Assembly (NCBI GenBank): GCA_937922235.1
Contig: CAKZVC010000012.1
Location: forward strand, 62,001 to 126,000
Length of the DNA stretch: 64,000 nt
From: an uncultured Acidimicrobiales bacterium
Lineage (GTDB): Bacteria > Actinomycetota > Acidimicrobiia > Acidimicrobiales > SHLQ01
Direction: 5' to 3'
The notes beneath the pieces are model-generated. The model did no database searches. It was not told where the DNA came from and was given only the letters and a program-made list of their open reading frames with translations. Shown piece by piece: positions 49,086 to 55,862 of the stretch. Numbering within the stretch: position 1 is the stretch's first letter; every line of letters begins with the position of its first letter. The translations under genes were made by a program, and so were the position numbers.

Positions 49086-49493
49086 ATGATCCGATCGCTC
49101 GAAGACGCGCTGATTCCGGTCGTGTCCACGGGGTGGACAATGTCGGAGATCGATGGCGAACTCCACGCATTGCCGTCGGTTGCGCTCGACGTAGCCAAAC
49201 GGCCCGATGTTGAGGATCTTGCCCGGGTGCATGCAACCGAGGGCATCGGTGAGATCCGCACGCTCGCAACGCCAGCGGGCGGCGGCAATGTGCGGTTCGA
49301 CGTCGTCATAACGAGCCCAGTGCAATGCCACTTGGCGTTCATTGTCGACGATGTGCATCAGGCAGTGCTCGATGAGGCCGCGAAGCAAGAGACTCTCGTG
49401 CTCGCCACCGGCGATCCGTCGATCGTTGGAGCCACCTGGCTTGCGGTCAACATTGATGGAGATGCCCTACAGGCCGTCTTGGCGAGCTGCTAA
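49086..49493 (+). CDS. Hypothetical protein
   Basis: A 135-residue protein from MIRSLEDALIPV; an ATG at 48975 would add 37 residues but overlap the divergent MFS start. Not recognised. Predicted alpha/beta: VVSTGWTMSEIDGELH, VHATEGIGEIRTLATPAGGG, VQCHLAFIVDDVHQAVLDE. Codon pattern is like its neighbours. Its 3' end overlaps the convergent selenoprotein gene by 4 bp. Confidence 0.5.
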   Translation: MIRSLEDALIPVVSTGWTMSEIDGELHALPSVALDVAKRPDVEDLARVHATEGIGEIRTLATPAGGGNVRFDVVITSPVQCHLAFIVDDVHQAVLDEAAKQETLVLATGDPSIVGATWLAVNIDGDALQAVLASC

Positions 49494-50398
49494 CACACCG
49501 GACACGCAAGCTCTTCGCCGTGCTTCTCGATGGCGGCTGCCATGTCGCTCATCCGTTCGTACTGCGGCGTGGCTTCACGCGGCGTTCGATGGTCGATGAG
49601 CTCTCGGGCTTCGTCCTTCCATGGTTCAGGCCATTGGTGCTCGGTTGGAACAATGATGCCCGGCTCTGACGCCGAGACGGCCAAGTCGAGCGCTGCCCGT
49701 GCGATCGCTATCTGAACGTCGGGTGCGTTCGGAGGACCTGCCGTGTTGCCGAGTGGGAAGTCGGAGAAGAGCGCCCGTGGCGGGTTCGCCGACTGTGTGA
49801 TCGACCATGCGCTCGTGAGCGTGACCGTGGTGATTCCAGATGCTTCAAGTGCTCGTGCGATCAGACCGACCGACTGGTGACACACTGGTCATACCGGCAC
49901 CATCAACGCGATGTCGGCTTCGAGCTCGTGCACTCGATCGACGATCGCCGGCGTGAGCGTTTCTCCGAGACGACGCTGACTGTAGATGCCGCCCATAAAC
50001 GTCAGACCAACGTCAGCGAGCGAACCGACCTCACCCGCATCGACCATCGCCCGGAGCGCATCGATCGGGAAGACGGCGTTGATATCGGCCTTGGCTGACG
50101 TCTCGTCGTAGGCGAAGTGTGTGACGCGCAGTTCGTCGCTCGGAACATCGGACGCAATCTCGCGATGGGTGAGGTCGTCTTTGTGGGTGAAGCCGATGTC
50201 GCCAACTCGGTACACGCCGCCCGAGGCGATGAGCACGACCTTGCTTTCGCTCAGTGGCTTCGCCGGCGGAACAAGCGCCGGAGGCTCCTCGGTGTTGTCG
50301 GCCCATCGATATGCGTCGTACCCAAGCAATGCGTACGAGTCATGCGTGACCTGGATGTAGTCGACCGGGTCGAGCTCAGCTGGTGCGTCCTGTCCCAT
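49490..50398 (-). CDS. GrdB-like glycine/sarcosine/betaine reductase selenoprotein B family protein with in-frame UGA (Sec)
   Basis: Two consecutive minus-strand ORFs are in the same frame, separated only by a TGA at 49889-49891. Read through, they give one 302-residue protein with Sec170 in MVPV-U-PVCHQSVGLIAR. The N-terminal part has family blocks VFPIDALRAM and GLTFMGGIYSQRRLGE, and the segment after the TGA continues the same family without loss. UxxCH is the recognised redox motif of GrdB-like selenoproteins, and many relatives have Cys at this position. A second redox-type motif, CPVC, forms the extreme C-terminus. A weak ACC-AGUC-GGU hairpin 11 nt after the UGA could belong to a SECIS. 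No sel genes are in the window. Function outside Clostridia unknown, perhaps redox. Confidence 0.85.
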
Positions 50399-50459: not shown

Positions 50460-51623
50460 TCAACGGACTGCCCGCAACACGACGAACTTCTTGTTCGCTG
50501 CCAGTACTTCGGCTGACCCGAAGATCTTCGCAAGCTTTGCGTGATATCCGAGGTGCCGGTTACCTACGACGATCAGCGAGGACCCACCGCGAAGGACTTT
50601 GTGGGCATCGGTGAACATCGACCAGGCGGTGTGATCACCAACGACACGGTCATCGTGGAATGGCGGGTTGACCACGATCAAGTCAACCGAACGGGCCCCC
50701 AGCGATTCGATCATCCGGTGCTGATGATGGACGGTAAGCCTGGCTCGTTCATCGACCGTGCTTGCCTCCCACGAGGCCCGAGTTGCCTCGATCGCGAGCG
50801 CCGAGTCGTCGATCGCCTCGATCGACACCATTCGCCCCGAAGCAACGAGGTCCTGAGCGAGCCGCAGCCCGATCACGCCGTTCCCGCAGCCGAGGTCGAC
50901 TGCACGAACGTTCCCGCTGACGTCGTGTGGCAACATCGCAGCGAAATCCGTGACGGTGTCGAGCAACATCGCCGTCCCCGAGTCCAGTCCCGAGGGCGAG
51001 AAACCACCGCCGTGGTTCAGCAACGTGTGCCCACGAGCAGACCACGCCTGAGGCCAGGTCTTCTCCCCCACCTCGAGCTCCTCGTCCACAATCACGTGGA
51101 GCAACCGTGCCTTCTTCTTTGCTAGCGACGCCGTCGCAGGCCCAACGAGCGTCTCAAGAGACTCGGTCGCTGAACGGTGGAGATGCTTCACCATGGCAGC
51201 ACCGACGACCCTGGTCTCGGCATGCAGAAGCGGGCGGAGCCGGTACAGCAAGTCGTCGAGGTGGGCGGTGGCCTTAGGGATCTTGATCACGACCAGGTCG
51301 AACGATTCAGCTGTCGCCGGTTCGGCGTCGAGGTCGAGCATCGAATACACGTCGATTGGCTCGAGTTCGTTCGCGGCAAGGTTTTGCGCTGTGGCCGCAC
51401 GCCCGGCGGACGATTCGTTGATAACGACCAGGTTGAACGAACGGAGCGAGCACGTCAGCGCACCGAATGCATCGTTCACCAGCAATACTCGAGCCCCAGC
51501 AGCTAGCGGCACCTCATCGAGATGAGAGAGCACCAACTCGTCGGCCGCATCCCAAGCTCGAAGTGGCTGCTTGGGCTGTTCGGGAACCCGACGCAACATG
51601 AGGGCGCCCAAGCGTTCGTTCAT
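50460..51623 (-). CDS. rlmG: RlmG/RsmC-type rRNA guanine-N2 methyltransferase
   Basis: About 387 residues starting MNERLGALMLRRV. It has duplicated methyltransferase folds, as in RsmC/RlmG: a degenerate N-terminal half (VLLVNDAFGALTCSL) and an active C-terminal half with VDLGCGNGVIGLRLA and the N2-guanine motif VNPPFHDDR. RlmG methylates G1835 of 23S rRNA; RsmC acts on 16S G1207. The length and N-terminal half favour RlmG, but either is possible. Confidence 0.8.
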   Translation of the reverse strand: MNERLGALMLRRVPEQPKQPLRAWDAADELVLSHLDEVPLAAGARVLLVNDAFGALTCSLRSFNLVVINESSAGRAATAQNLAANELEPIDVYSMLDLDAEPATAESFDLVVIKIPKATAHLDDLLYRLRPLLHAETRVVGAAMVKHLHRSATESLETLVGPATASLAKKKARLLHVIVDEELEVGEKTWPQAWSARGHTLLNHGGGFSPSGLDSGTAMLLDTVTDFAAMLPHDVSGNVRAVDLGCGNGVIGLRLAQDLVASGRMVSIEAIDDSALAIEATRASWEASTVDERARLTVHHQHRMIESLGARSVDLIVVNPPFHDDRVVGDHTAWSMFTDAHKVLRGGSSLIVVGNRHLGYHAKLAKIFGSAEVLAANKKFVVLRAVR

Positions 51624-53756: not shown

Positions 53757-54359
53757 TCAGTACCGGTCGTCCATGAGGACCCACATGGCAAGCATCGTGT
53801 CGTTGCCGGGCTCGATGCCATGTACGTCCATCGAACTATTCGACAGGACCTGGCCTTGGTCGACCTTTACGTACCGATCCGATCCGCCGAATCGCCATCG
53901 ACGGCTGCCATGCAAGACGAGGTAGATCTCAGCGGGGCGATGTTGATGTTCGGGGTAGGCAGCACCTGGGCCAAGAAGCATCATCCCGGCGCCGGCGAGA
54001 TCCATGTCGAGGCACTCGAAGAGGTCGACGAGCGCAACGTCATCGCCGTCGGGGTCCGTGCGAGTCGATGCTGCCCACGGAAGGCTCGGCGCTAAGGCGA
54101 CGAAATCGGAGATGAGGTTGGGGCTGGGTTCTAGCGGCGTGCTGTCGAGCAACGGTTCAAGGTGCCGTTGAGCGCCAAGGGGCCGTGCCAGTGGTTCGGG
54201 AGGTGGGTCGGCGGCGACGGCATAGGCCGATGCAGCGGCCGCAGCCCAGCTTCGGCGTTGCACCTGCGCCCCGTGGCCGCGCTCAGCCTCGGCTACGAGC
54301 GGAATGATGGCTCGGCGATACCAGGCCGCTAGCTCTTCCATCGACTCTTTTTGCCCCAT
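53757..54359 (-). CDS. Cupin-type DMSP lyase candidate (DddQ/DddL/DddW-like)
   Basis: A 200-residue protein; the ATG at 54359 follows AAGGGG. The N-terminal half is helical. A single-domain cupin follows with LGPGAAYPEHQHRPAEIYL, preserving the H-x-H-x3-E-x-Y pattern of DMSP lyases (here His138, His140, Glu144, Tyr146). A distal His180 lies in SSMDVHGIEPG. In DddQ the metal is held by the second His, the Glu, the Tyr and the distal His, and the Tyr acts in catalysis; all are present. The preceding LPWA resembles the conserved region before the cupin in these lyases. The expected reaction is DMSP to DMS plus acrylate. It could be another cupin lyase or isomerase. Divergent from the di-haem lipoprotein gene. 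Confidence 0.7.
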   Translation of the reverse strand: MGQKESMEELAAWYRRAIIPLVAEAERGHGAQVQRRSWAAAAASAYAVAADPPPEPLARPLGAQRHLEPLLDSTPLEPSPNLISDFVALAPSLPWAASTRTDPDGDDVALVDLFECLDMDLAGAGMMLLGPGAAYPEHQHRPAEIYLVLHGSRRWRFGGSDRYVKVDQGQVLSNSSMDVHGIEPGNDTMLAMWVLMDDRY

Positions 54360-54401
54360 TGCTGCCCCTTCAAACGCTGGCCGTCATCGTACCCTTGGGC
54401 T

Positions 54402-55862
54402 ATGCGTCGCTCATCGCTACCCTGTTCGGCCGTTCTCGCCTTGGGGCTGGCGATCGCCATCGCCGCATGCACCAGCAGCGACCCAGTATCGCTTCGCTCG
54501 ACCGACGAACCCTCGCCGTCGAGCACGACCGCTGTTTTGGACGAGCCAGCGAACTCGGACGACTCGATCGCTGACGATGGTGTGGTCGATGAGTCGCTTC
54601 TTCCCGTCGTGTTCGCCAACCCGGTCGAGGGCCTGACCGACGATGAACTTGCCGAGTTCATCACCGGCCAAGGCTTCTTCAACGAGGTCTGGACGCCCGT
54701 TGCAACGAACGGCCGCTCCGACAGCGATGGGCTTGGCCCGTTGTTCAACGCCGAATCGTGCGTGGCGTGCCACCCGGCCAATGGGCGGCGCCGTGTGCCT
54801 CCACAGGGCGAGCTCACCGGATCGGGCTTGGTTGTTCGACTTTCGATCCCCGGGCGAGACCCGATTACCGGCGGCCCCGTGCCGGAGCCGGCGTATGGCG
54901 ATCAGCTTCAAGACCGTGCAACCGGCGCCGTCGAACCCGAGGGGGCGGTGTTCACGAACTACATCGTCCAGTCAGACTTCTACGCCGACGGCACCCGCTA
55001 TGACATCTTGTGGCCGACGGTCAATATCCGCCGACGCAACCACGGCCCGTTGACCGAGGGGTTCCAAACGTCCGCCCGGATCGGTTCACAGATGATCGGA
55101 ATGGGGCTGCTCGAGCTCATCTCCCAAGAAGAGATACTGGCGCTGGCCGACCCGAGCGATGCGAACAACGACGGCATCAGCGGGCGTGCCAACGCCGTGT
55201 GGAACCCGCAGACAAGTCAGGTCGAGCTCGGACGGTTTGGTTGGAAGGCGAACGTCGTTGCGCTCGACCAACAGATTGCTCAGGCCTTCCACGGCGACCT
55301 TGGCGTGACGTCAACGCTCATTCCTTTCGAGAACTGCGCCCCGCAACAGACAGCATGCGATGACGCCCCATCTGGCGGGACCGCGGAAGTCTCCGACGAG
55401 AAGCTCCAGAACATCACCAACTATCTCCGCACACTCGGTGTTCCTCCGGCTCGGACGGCAGAGTCCGAGGCAGCCCAGCGCGGCGAACAACACTTCCGTG
55501 AGTTCGGGTGCACGAGCTGTCATGTCGAGAGCTTTACGACCGGGTCGAGCCCGATCGAAGCAATCTCCAACGTCGAGATCCGCCCGTACACCGACATGCT
55601 CCTGCACGACATGGGCTTCGATATGAGCGATAGCCGCCCGGACTTCGCCGCCTCCCCCATCGAGTGGCGCACCGCGCCGCTTTGGGGGCTCGGGCTGGTT
55701 CCCATCGACGGTGATCGAGGTCTCCTACACGACGGTCGAGCCCGCACGATCGAGGAAGCTGTCCTGTGGCATGGAGGCGAAGCACAACGCTCCCGAAATG
55801 CCTTCATCAACGCCGAGCTAGCGAAACGGCAAGAACTCCTAGCGTTCTTGGAAAGCCTCTAA
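54402..55862 (+). CDS. Di-haem c-type cytochrome lipoprotein (DUF1111 thiol-oxidoreductase-like)
   Basis: A 486-residue protein with a lipoprotein signal peptide ending AIAAC (lipobox Cys22). Two c-type haem sites are present: CVACH (residue ~123) and CTSCH (~370). The layout (GPLFNAESCVACHPANG, NNDGISGRANAVW, FGWKANVVALDQQIAQAF) is that of the DUF1111 di-haem oxidoreductase family, related to cytochrome c peroxidases. It should sit outside the membrane and carry out redox chemistry on an unknown partner. Divergent from the cupin gene, sharing a 42-bp spacer, so the two may be co-regulated. Confidence 0.85.
   Translation: MRRSSLPCSAVLALGLAIAIAACTSSDPVSLRSTDEPSPSSTTAVLDEPANSDDSIADDGVVDESLLPVVFANPVEGLTDDELAEFITGQGFFNEVWTPVATNGRSDSDGLGPLFNAESCVACHPANGRRRVPPQGELTGSGLVVRLSIPGRDPITGGPVPEPAYGDQLQDRATGAVEPEGAVFTNYIVQSDFYADGTRYDILWPTVNIRRRNHGPLTEGFQTSARIGSQMIGMGLLELISQEEILALADPSDANNDGISGRANAVWNPQTSQVELGRFGWKANVVALDQQIAQAFHGDLGVTSTLIPFENCAPQQTACDDAPSGGTAEVSDEKLQNITNYLRTLGVPPARTAESEAAQRGEQHFREFGCTSCHVESFTTGSSPIEAISNVEIRPYTDMLLHDMGFDMSDSRPDFAASPIEWRTAPLWGLGLVPIDGDRGLLHDGRARTIEEAVLWHGGEAQRSRNAFINAELAKRQELLAFLESL

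Follow-up and report, generated by a model that had tools for sequence, protein, structure and literature searches.

PrdB-like selenoproteins are known from two environmental surveys of seawater. The Sargasso Sea survey counted 42 prdB genes with selenocysteine (Sec) and one with Cys, which made prdB the third most abundant known family in its available text (PMC1088965), and in the GOS ocean samples PrdB was among the most abundant selenoproteins, with 235 Sec and 110 Cys forms (PMC2398784). Although the PrdB-like proteins are abundant in GOS, the available part of that text gives them no role outside amino-acid metabolism (PMC2398784). The string 'actinobact' occurs 0 times in it, and the lineage studied here is not named in the available parts of either survey. 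A literature search on selenoproteins with Actinobacteria or Acidimicrobiia returned no title on this gene group, within a coverage from which subscription papers were mostly absent. A further related system is FarB of the far operon of Synergistota, for which the available text proposes fluoroacetate cleavage with a partner that lacks the two pyruvoyl-forming cysteines (PMC10838667).

Here we analyzed a locus in a 64,000-nucleotide stretch of DNA (the window) from an uncultured Acidimicrobiales bacterium. In a program-made list of open reading frames (ORFs), a minus-strand ORF of 169 amino acids (49889–50398) ends with the TGA at 49889–49891 and shares its frame with a minus-strand ORF of 131 amino acids (49490–49885) whose first listed start is GTG. 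The TGA and one CCA codon are the sole spacer between the two coding stretches. When the TGA is read through, the frame comprises 302 codons followed by TAG, and its product would contain the motif MVPV-U170-PVC173-H. The original prediction had described two same-frame ORFs parted by a TGA as a hidden selenoprotein with a UxxCH motif. The coordinates and the 302-codon readthrough frame confirm the arrangement, the residues after U170 read as P-V-C173-H, and the selenoprotein assignment is supported by a conserved TGA, sel genes together with tRNA-Sec, a family hairpin and open downstream frames. The sequence is most likely to be read as one intact selenoprotein gene at 49490–50398, with its UGA decoded as Sec in the UxxC motif. 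Gene prediction that takes TGA solely as a stop codon breaks genes of this kind in two, as happened in the ORF list used here.

Table 1 Coordinates of the PrdB-like gene and its parts within the window
Feature	Position	Strand	Details
PrdB-like selenoprotein gene	49490..50398	minus	ATG 50396-50398; 302 sense codons, Sec predicted at 170; TAG 49490-49492
In-frame TGA, predicted Sec codon 170	49889..49891	minus	TGA here in 43/44 related loci
Cys173 codon of the U170-P-V-C173-H motif; presumed resolving cysteine	49880..49882	minus	Invariant in the 46-row protein alignment; Asp in distant paralogue L110
Proposed shifted-register SECIS hairpin	49858..49872	minus	5 bp, columns 20-24 with 30-34; loop GGUCU 49863-49867, loop start 21 nt after UGA; centroid fold; register available in all 7 examined members without the usual hairpin
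Slot of the family's usual SECIS hairpin	49860..49878	minus	Columns 14-20 with 26-32; broken in the window gene by U.U and C.A mismatches
C-terminal C-P-V-C, residues 299-302; possible second redox pair	49493..49504	minus	Read from the translation; C-terminal CxxC in 18/43 members

The predicted protein matches the Pfam GRDB model PF07355 over residues 43–140 with 31.9 bits, above the gathering score of 22. Its best NCBIfam model is D-proline reductase PrdB, TIGR04483, to which residues 39–245 align at model positions 17–223 of 238; the 151.9 bits obtained are about half the equivalog cut-off of 300. This model matches all 46 alignment rows at E ≤ 0.001. The GrdH, GrdF and GrdB models of NCBIfam give 44 bits or less, all below cut-off, and the two models for glycine reductase selenoprotein B, TIGR01917 and TIGR01918, give 26.5 and 32.9 bits against cut-offs of 602.2 and 65.45. 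Judged by these model scores, the protein is PrdB-like and closer to PrdB than to GrdB, which replaces its initial description as GrdB-like. It also has both features that define the environmental PrdB-like proteins of GOS, a pfam07355 match and a UxxC with Sec. Invariant positions across the 46 rows include YSQR (139–142) and UPxCHQ (170–175), both of which vary in distant paralogues.

The order of genes around the window gene is common to L024 and L025, its two nearest relatives, and the gene therefore belongs to its genome. Elsewhere the neighbors vary by lineage and a conserved partner was not found. Among the ten neighbor proteins scanned, a methyltransferase and an MFS transporter lie beside the window gene, and those from other lineages are alpha/beta hydrolase, enoyl-CoA hydratase, thiolase, MaoC, luciferase-like, ornithine cyclodeaminase-like and CoA-transferase proteins; one cluster, in which antisense ORFs were mixed with a hydrolase, was left out. 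PEP carboxylase and the other gene names in the window are ones that we presume from recognition by eye. At 54351–55862 on the plus strand the window also encodes a predicted protein with two CxxCH motifs (CVACH and CTSCH) and a signal-peptide-like start, which from its translation may be of the di-haem cytochrome type. PrdA (TIGR04480) was not found in the window's own genome, and PF09338 (Gly_reductase), which we take to cover PrdA/GrdE-type subunits, was found in 0 of the 19 genomes of the family-level group; for both models the control genomes were likewise silent. A PrdA/GrdE-type partner is likely absent on these searches, which, as far as PrdA and PF09338 are concerned, are in line with the original remark on missing amino-acid-fermentation genes nearby. 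These data bear directly on whether the gene encodes a true D-proline reductase subunit acting with PrdA, as would be suggested by PrdB being the best NCBIfam model (151.9 bits) and by the family's name in the available texts of the GOS and Sargasso papers (PMC2398784, PMC1088965). We consider this improbable, given a score of half the equivalog cut-off, the PrdA and PF09338 searches with their silent controls, neighbors that differ between lineages and the finding that 0 of the 10 scanned are prd proteins.

We then compared the gene with 44 related loci obtained from a scan of genome contigs. The codon for residue 170 is TGA in 43 of these and TGT in one, L067, which is 36% identical. The full 302-residue frame is matched in L024, L025 and L026 at 80, 77 and 73% identity, each with TGA at the same codon. 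In the comparison with L024, dN and dS are 0.113 and 0.98 before the TGA and 0.184 and 1.05 after it; five further comparisons with the window gene also give dN well below dS, with dS near or beyond saturation in L026 and L047. As judged by these rates, both halves of the gene, before and after the TGA, are under purifying selection. With the full frame and its TGA recurring in L024, L025 and L026, and with dS far exceeding dN both before and after the TGA, the ORF pair is more than a chance arrangement. The downstream frame is open for 114–143 codons in the related loci read, the exception being one second copy truncated where its contig ends; decay of the downstream halves, which the original prediction had named as evidence that would count against it, is therefore not seen in these loci. 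The homologue alignment at residue 170 that had been proposed alongside gave a conserved UGA with a single Cys (43 and 1 of 44). The accompanying statement that Cys replaces Sec in many relatives does not hold for this branch (1 of 44) and does hold for the wider family, in which the available GOS text counts 235 Sec and 110 Cys forms (PMC2398784).

The same pattern extends to more remote genomes. All 19 genomes of the family-level group had a match, and each of their 43 matches, which overlap with the 44 loci, contains exactly one TGA. In a sample of the class, 125 of 395 genomes had a match; among the matches listed, the 32 with E ≤ 4e-45 have one TGA each, and three of the weaker ones lack any stop. 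We read 34 more distant loci codon by codon, 19 from the family-level group and 15 chosen mostly for odd stop counts, and found TGA in 31, Cys in two (L105 and L106) and Ala in one (L107). This last locus (G212:C71), a distant paralogue, has GCT for Sec, no hairpin by the rule applied and an open downstream frame. Another distant paralogue, L110 (G295:C49), retains the TGA and has Asp for the second redox Cys (UPLDH), and L020 (G000:C47:103009-103767) is a second PrdB-like gene of the window's own genome, 36% identical and with an in-frame TGA. We also looked at possible multi-Sec forms. Nine among the matches listed had more than one stop, seven with TGA only and two, G367 and G381, with TAG or TAA as well; the extra stops all lie after the conserved domain and look terminator-like by eye, and this possibility was rejected.

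Two readings would make the TGA an ordinary stop. In one, it arose by nonsense mutation, sequencing error or pseudogene formation and the downstream half is decaying, as the split ORF and the use of TGA to end 3 of 9 ORFs checked in the window might suggest. The same TGA in separate assemblies that are 80, 77 and 73% identical, the purifying selection on the downstream half, the Sec machinery in the same genome and a hairpin compensated over the family all oppose this reading, which we regard as extremely improbable; the conserved TGA and the selected downstream half likewise agree with the initial judgement that a nonsense mutation was unlikely. In the other, two functional proteins of 169 and 131 amino acids are made separately, the second from the GTG that follows the TGA and one CCA codon. 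The frames of L067, L105 and L106, however, run continuously through a Cys codon, the PrdB model spans the TGA as one stretch (residues 39–245) and the single chain is predicted to fold with a mean pLDDT of 93.6, so that separate products are scarcely to be expected. The preferred reading remains a single readthrough protein.

The window's own genome, which is 87.5% complete, encodes selA adjoining selB, selD on the same contig and, on contig C41, two tRNA-Sec genes with anticodon TCA. The claim that this organism decodes Sec is thus backed by selA, selB, selD and tRNA-Sec. The tRNA-Sec pair (L021, G000:C41, 69–206 and 2021–2158) is carried at a contig end by the two copies of an inverted repeat of 138 nt, which are 99% complementary and 1.8 kb apart, with the two genes facing opposite ways; the other 17 family-group genomes with a match have one tRNA-Sec gene each. 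Contig C41 also encodes a second SelB match (195 bits; cut-off 242.25), which was not taken as a second Sec system, the start of its translation being what we presume to be EF-Tu-like. Within the family group, 18 of 19 genomes have selA, all but the 73% complete G016, and 18 of 19 have tRNA-Sec, all but G013. Across the class sample, selA was present in 113 of 125 genomes with a PrdB-like match versus 163 of 270 without one (Fisher P = 1.4e-10, with shared ancestry uncorrected). When the comparison is restricted to a completeness of 90% or more and a contamination of 5% or less, the counts are 86 of 88 versus 93 of 179, where 86 is 88 minus the misses G252 and G310, hand-picked from rounded values; these are the two genomes at least 90% complete among the 12 of 125 that have a match and no selA. 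A change of the genetic code, with TGA read as Trp or another residue, was rejected, since TGA serves as an ordinary terminator in 3 of 9 ORFs checked in the window (for example at 50460–50462) and tRNA-Sec, selA, selB and selD are present.

For the SECIS element we used 45 aligned stretches following the UGA. RNAalifold chose a 7-bp hairpin with a 5-nt loop, pairing columns 14–20 with 26–32. The cells of this usual hairpin are paired in 96.8% of cases versus 90.0% in shuffles, and the percentage paired, the doubly changed cells and the covariation score were reached by 0 of 500 shuffles, although related sequences inflate such scores. Two pairs show compensatory changes; two of the five hairpin measures, pairs changed on both sides and further pair types, were not above shuffles (494 of 500). 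Codons CAG175 and CTG179, located in the two arms of the hairpin, rank lowest of 145 positions in relative synonymous entropy. L067, the sole Cys form among the 46 rows, is also the sole row without CAG175 and CTG179, and it is a natural control for the hairpin codons. In a wider set that includes paralogues (76 TGA-bearing sequences, 71 distinct), the five inner pairs are kept in 69 of 76 while the stem sequence turns over with compensation, the stem types being CAGUC, CAGAC, CGGUC, GUGUC and CGUAC. Paralogues L085, L101–L104 and L108 combine altered motifs (UPLCTRT, UPVCYVS and UPVCHVS) with wholly different yet compensated stems of the GUGUC/GACAC and CGUAC/GUACG types. Folded singly, 0 of 10 sequences were significantly better than their own shuffles (the window row being offset by three bases), and Rfam gave no match in 601 bases.

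In the window gene the usual stem is broken, as it is in L024, L025 and the paralogues L081, L087, L092 and L093, by mismatches of the U.U, A.C and C.A types. In each of these seven members a hairpin of 5 bp with the loop GGUCU is possible four columns further downstream; just one of its pairs varies, being G-C, A-U or G-U. Its loop is similar to the one in the SECIS of E. coli formate dehydrogenase. The shifted register is available in 6 of 6 distinct sequences that lack the usual hairpin and in 10 of the 65 that have it (Fisher P = 5.6e-5, uncorrected for relatedness). It probably arose in two events, and the ten sequences with both registers available, such as L086, could mark a route of switching through a two-hairpin state; L020, the second copy in the same genome, keeps the usual register. 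Rules for bacterial SECIS elements, as given in the available part of their source, are a loop of 3–9 nt, an upper stem of 4–16 bp, a G in the first two loop positions, a spacing of 16–37 nt and an MFE ≤ -7.5 (PMC13188914). The shifted hairpin agrees with them in loop, stem length, G and spacing; its stem alone gives -4.0 kcal/mol and the whole stretch -9.2 to -10.0. Several results speak against it: 194 of 200 shuffles fold at least as well as the window stretch, a similar hairpin arises in 1074 of 5000 recodings that keep the window's amino acids, no excess pairing or covariation of the shifted register is seen over all 45 rows, and the minimum-energy fold of L087 and L093, members of the shifted set, is a different structure. 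The window hairpin alone is not significant, and the weight of the SECIS case is on the family comparison. The SECIS check suggested at the outset thus found a covarying hairpin in the family and, in this gene, a broken usual hairpin with a weak shifted one in its place. The alignments indicate that a change of SECIS register in the window gene and its nearest relatives is likely.

Collectively, we think it highly probable that the locus as a whole is an intact selenoprotein gene with Sec inserted at residue 170, encoding a stand-alone PrdB relative with putative selenolate chemistry and a slipped SECIS. SelA and SelD would make Sec-tRNA with anticodon TCA, and SelB, bound to the hairpin just after the UGA, would deliver Sec to residue 170 of 302; in the window gene and its two nearest relatives this hairpin appears to have slipped about 4 nt downstream. 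The product would stand alone and be related to PrdB and to the C-terminal half of GrdB. In it, the selenolate of Sec170 may attack a small substrate at an activated carbon or heteroatom, Cys173 may then resolve the intermediate, and the enzyme could be re-reduced by a thioredoxin-type donor, a role that the CxxC at the C-terminus may perhaps take in some members. The CPVC of the window protein, put forward earlier as a possible second redox pair, is present; the CxxC is patchier in the family than had been assumed, with 18 of the 43 members checked (L020, L064 and L067 were excluded, their identity being below 45%). Since no pyruvoyl subunit was found, the substrate probably needs no Schiff-base activation.

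A selenoprotein at this locus might instead be a general thiol-disulfide or peroxide oxidoreductase working through U170-P-V-C173, and not a C-X bond reductase. UxxC is a common redox motif according to the available part of PMC13188914, an amino-acid-reductase partner was not found (PrdA in the own genome, PF09338 in 19 genomes, controls silent), and a CxxC tail occurs in 18 of 43 members. The kinship of the sequence, however, is to PrdB and GrdB subunits with no match to a thioredoxin-type family, and the GrdB-like FarB is proposed, in the text available, to act on fluoroacetate with a partner without pyruvoyl cysteines (PMC10838667); we regard the general oxidoreductase as possible and rather doubtful. 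Structure comparison is uninformative on this point. AlphaFold2 with the 46-row alignment gave a model with a mean pLDDT of 93.6, phmmer against solved structures returned no match at E ≤ 1, and Foldseek against the PDB returned none at E ≤ 0.001, the best hit (E 2.3e-3, TM about 0.2) not being meaningful. Returning to bond cleavage by a PrdB relative, we offer a broader proposal tentatively and with some doubt: that orphan PrdB-like selenoenzymes, a large set in Acidimicrobiia and other bacteria in which a genome can have as many as four matches and Sec is almost always kept, may carry out selenolate-dependent reductive bond cleavage without a pyruvoyl subunit on already activated substrates (such as an alpha-substituted carbonyl or acyl-CoA compound; genes for thiolase, enoyl-CoA hydratase, MaoC or CoA-transferase are close by in several lineages), and that in the window's genus the SECIS of part of the members of two groups of paralogues may have slipped about 4 nt to the hairpin with the GGUCU loop. 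If true, the slipped SECIS would make the register change directly testable. With the window gene, 75 other TGA-bearing members, natural Cys and Ala variants and a seeming change of SECIS register, both the enzyme's role and the plasticity of the SECIS are open to experiment.

Judged from its predicted translation, the window protein belongs to the already known PrdB-like UxxC selenoproteins of the Sargasso Sea (2005) and GOS (2008) surveys. It has in common with them the family name, UxxC, pfam07355 and the predominance of Sec, a likeness by description; unlike in the marine surveys, the genes are placed here in named Acidimicrobiia and other genomes, with paralogues, co-occurring sel genes and a covarying SECIS. 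The points of note are that a partner was not found, that Sec is kept almost without exception and that the SECIS register has probably changed. Clostridial PrdB (TIGR04483) resembles the protein over residues 39–245 and in having Sec in a UxxC, and it differs in that the window protein scores 151.9 bits against the cut-off of 300, has residues 1–38 and 246–302 outside the match and comes without a detected PrdA (controls silent). Selenoprotein B of the Grd systems (PF07355, TIGR01917/01918, GrdF and GrdH) is similar in that the window protein aligns to the C-terminal half of the models (Pfam 31.9 versus 22), whereas the matches start at model positions 215–220, so that about 210 N-terminal residues are missing from the window protein, and the NCBIfam models stay below cut-off. 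FarB, compared by the description in its available text, is likewise a GrdB-like selenoprotein, with a partner that lacks the pyruvoyl cysteines; it belongs to an anaerobe with a four-gene operon (PMC10838667), and no such operon was seen beside the window gene. By analogy, and as far as that text describes it, FarB is a precedent for such chemistry without a pyruvoyl group.
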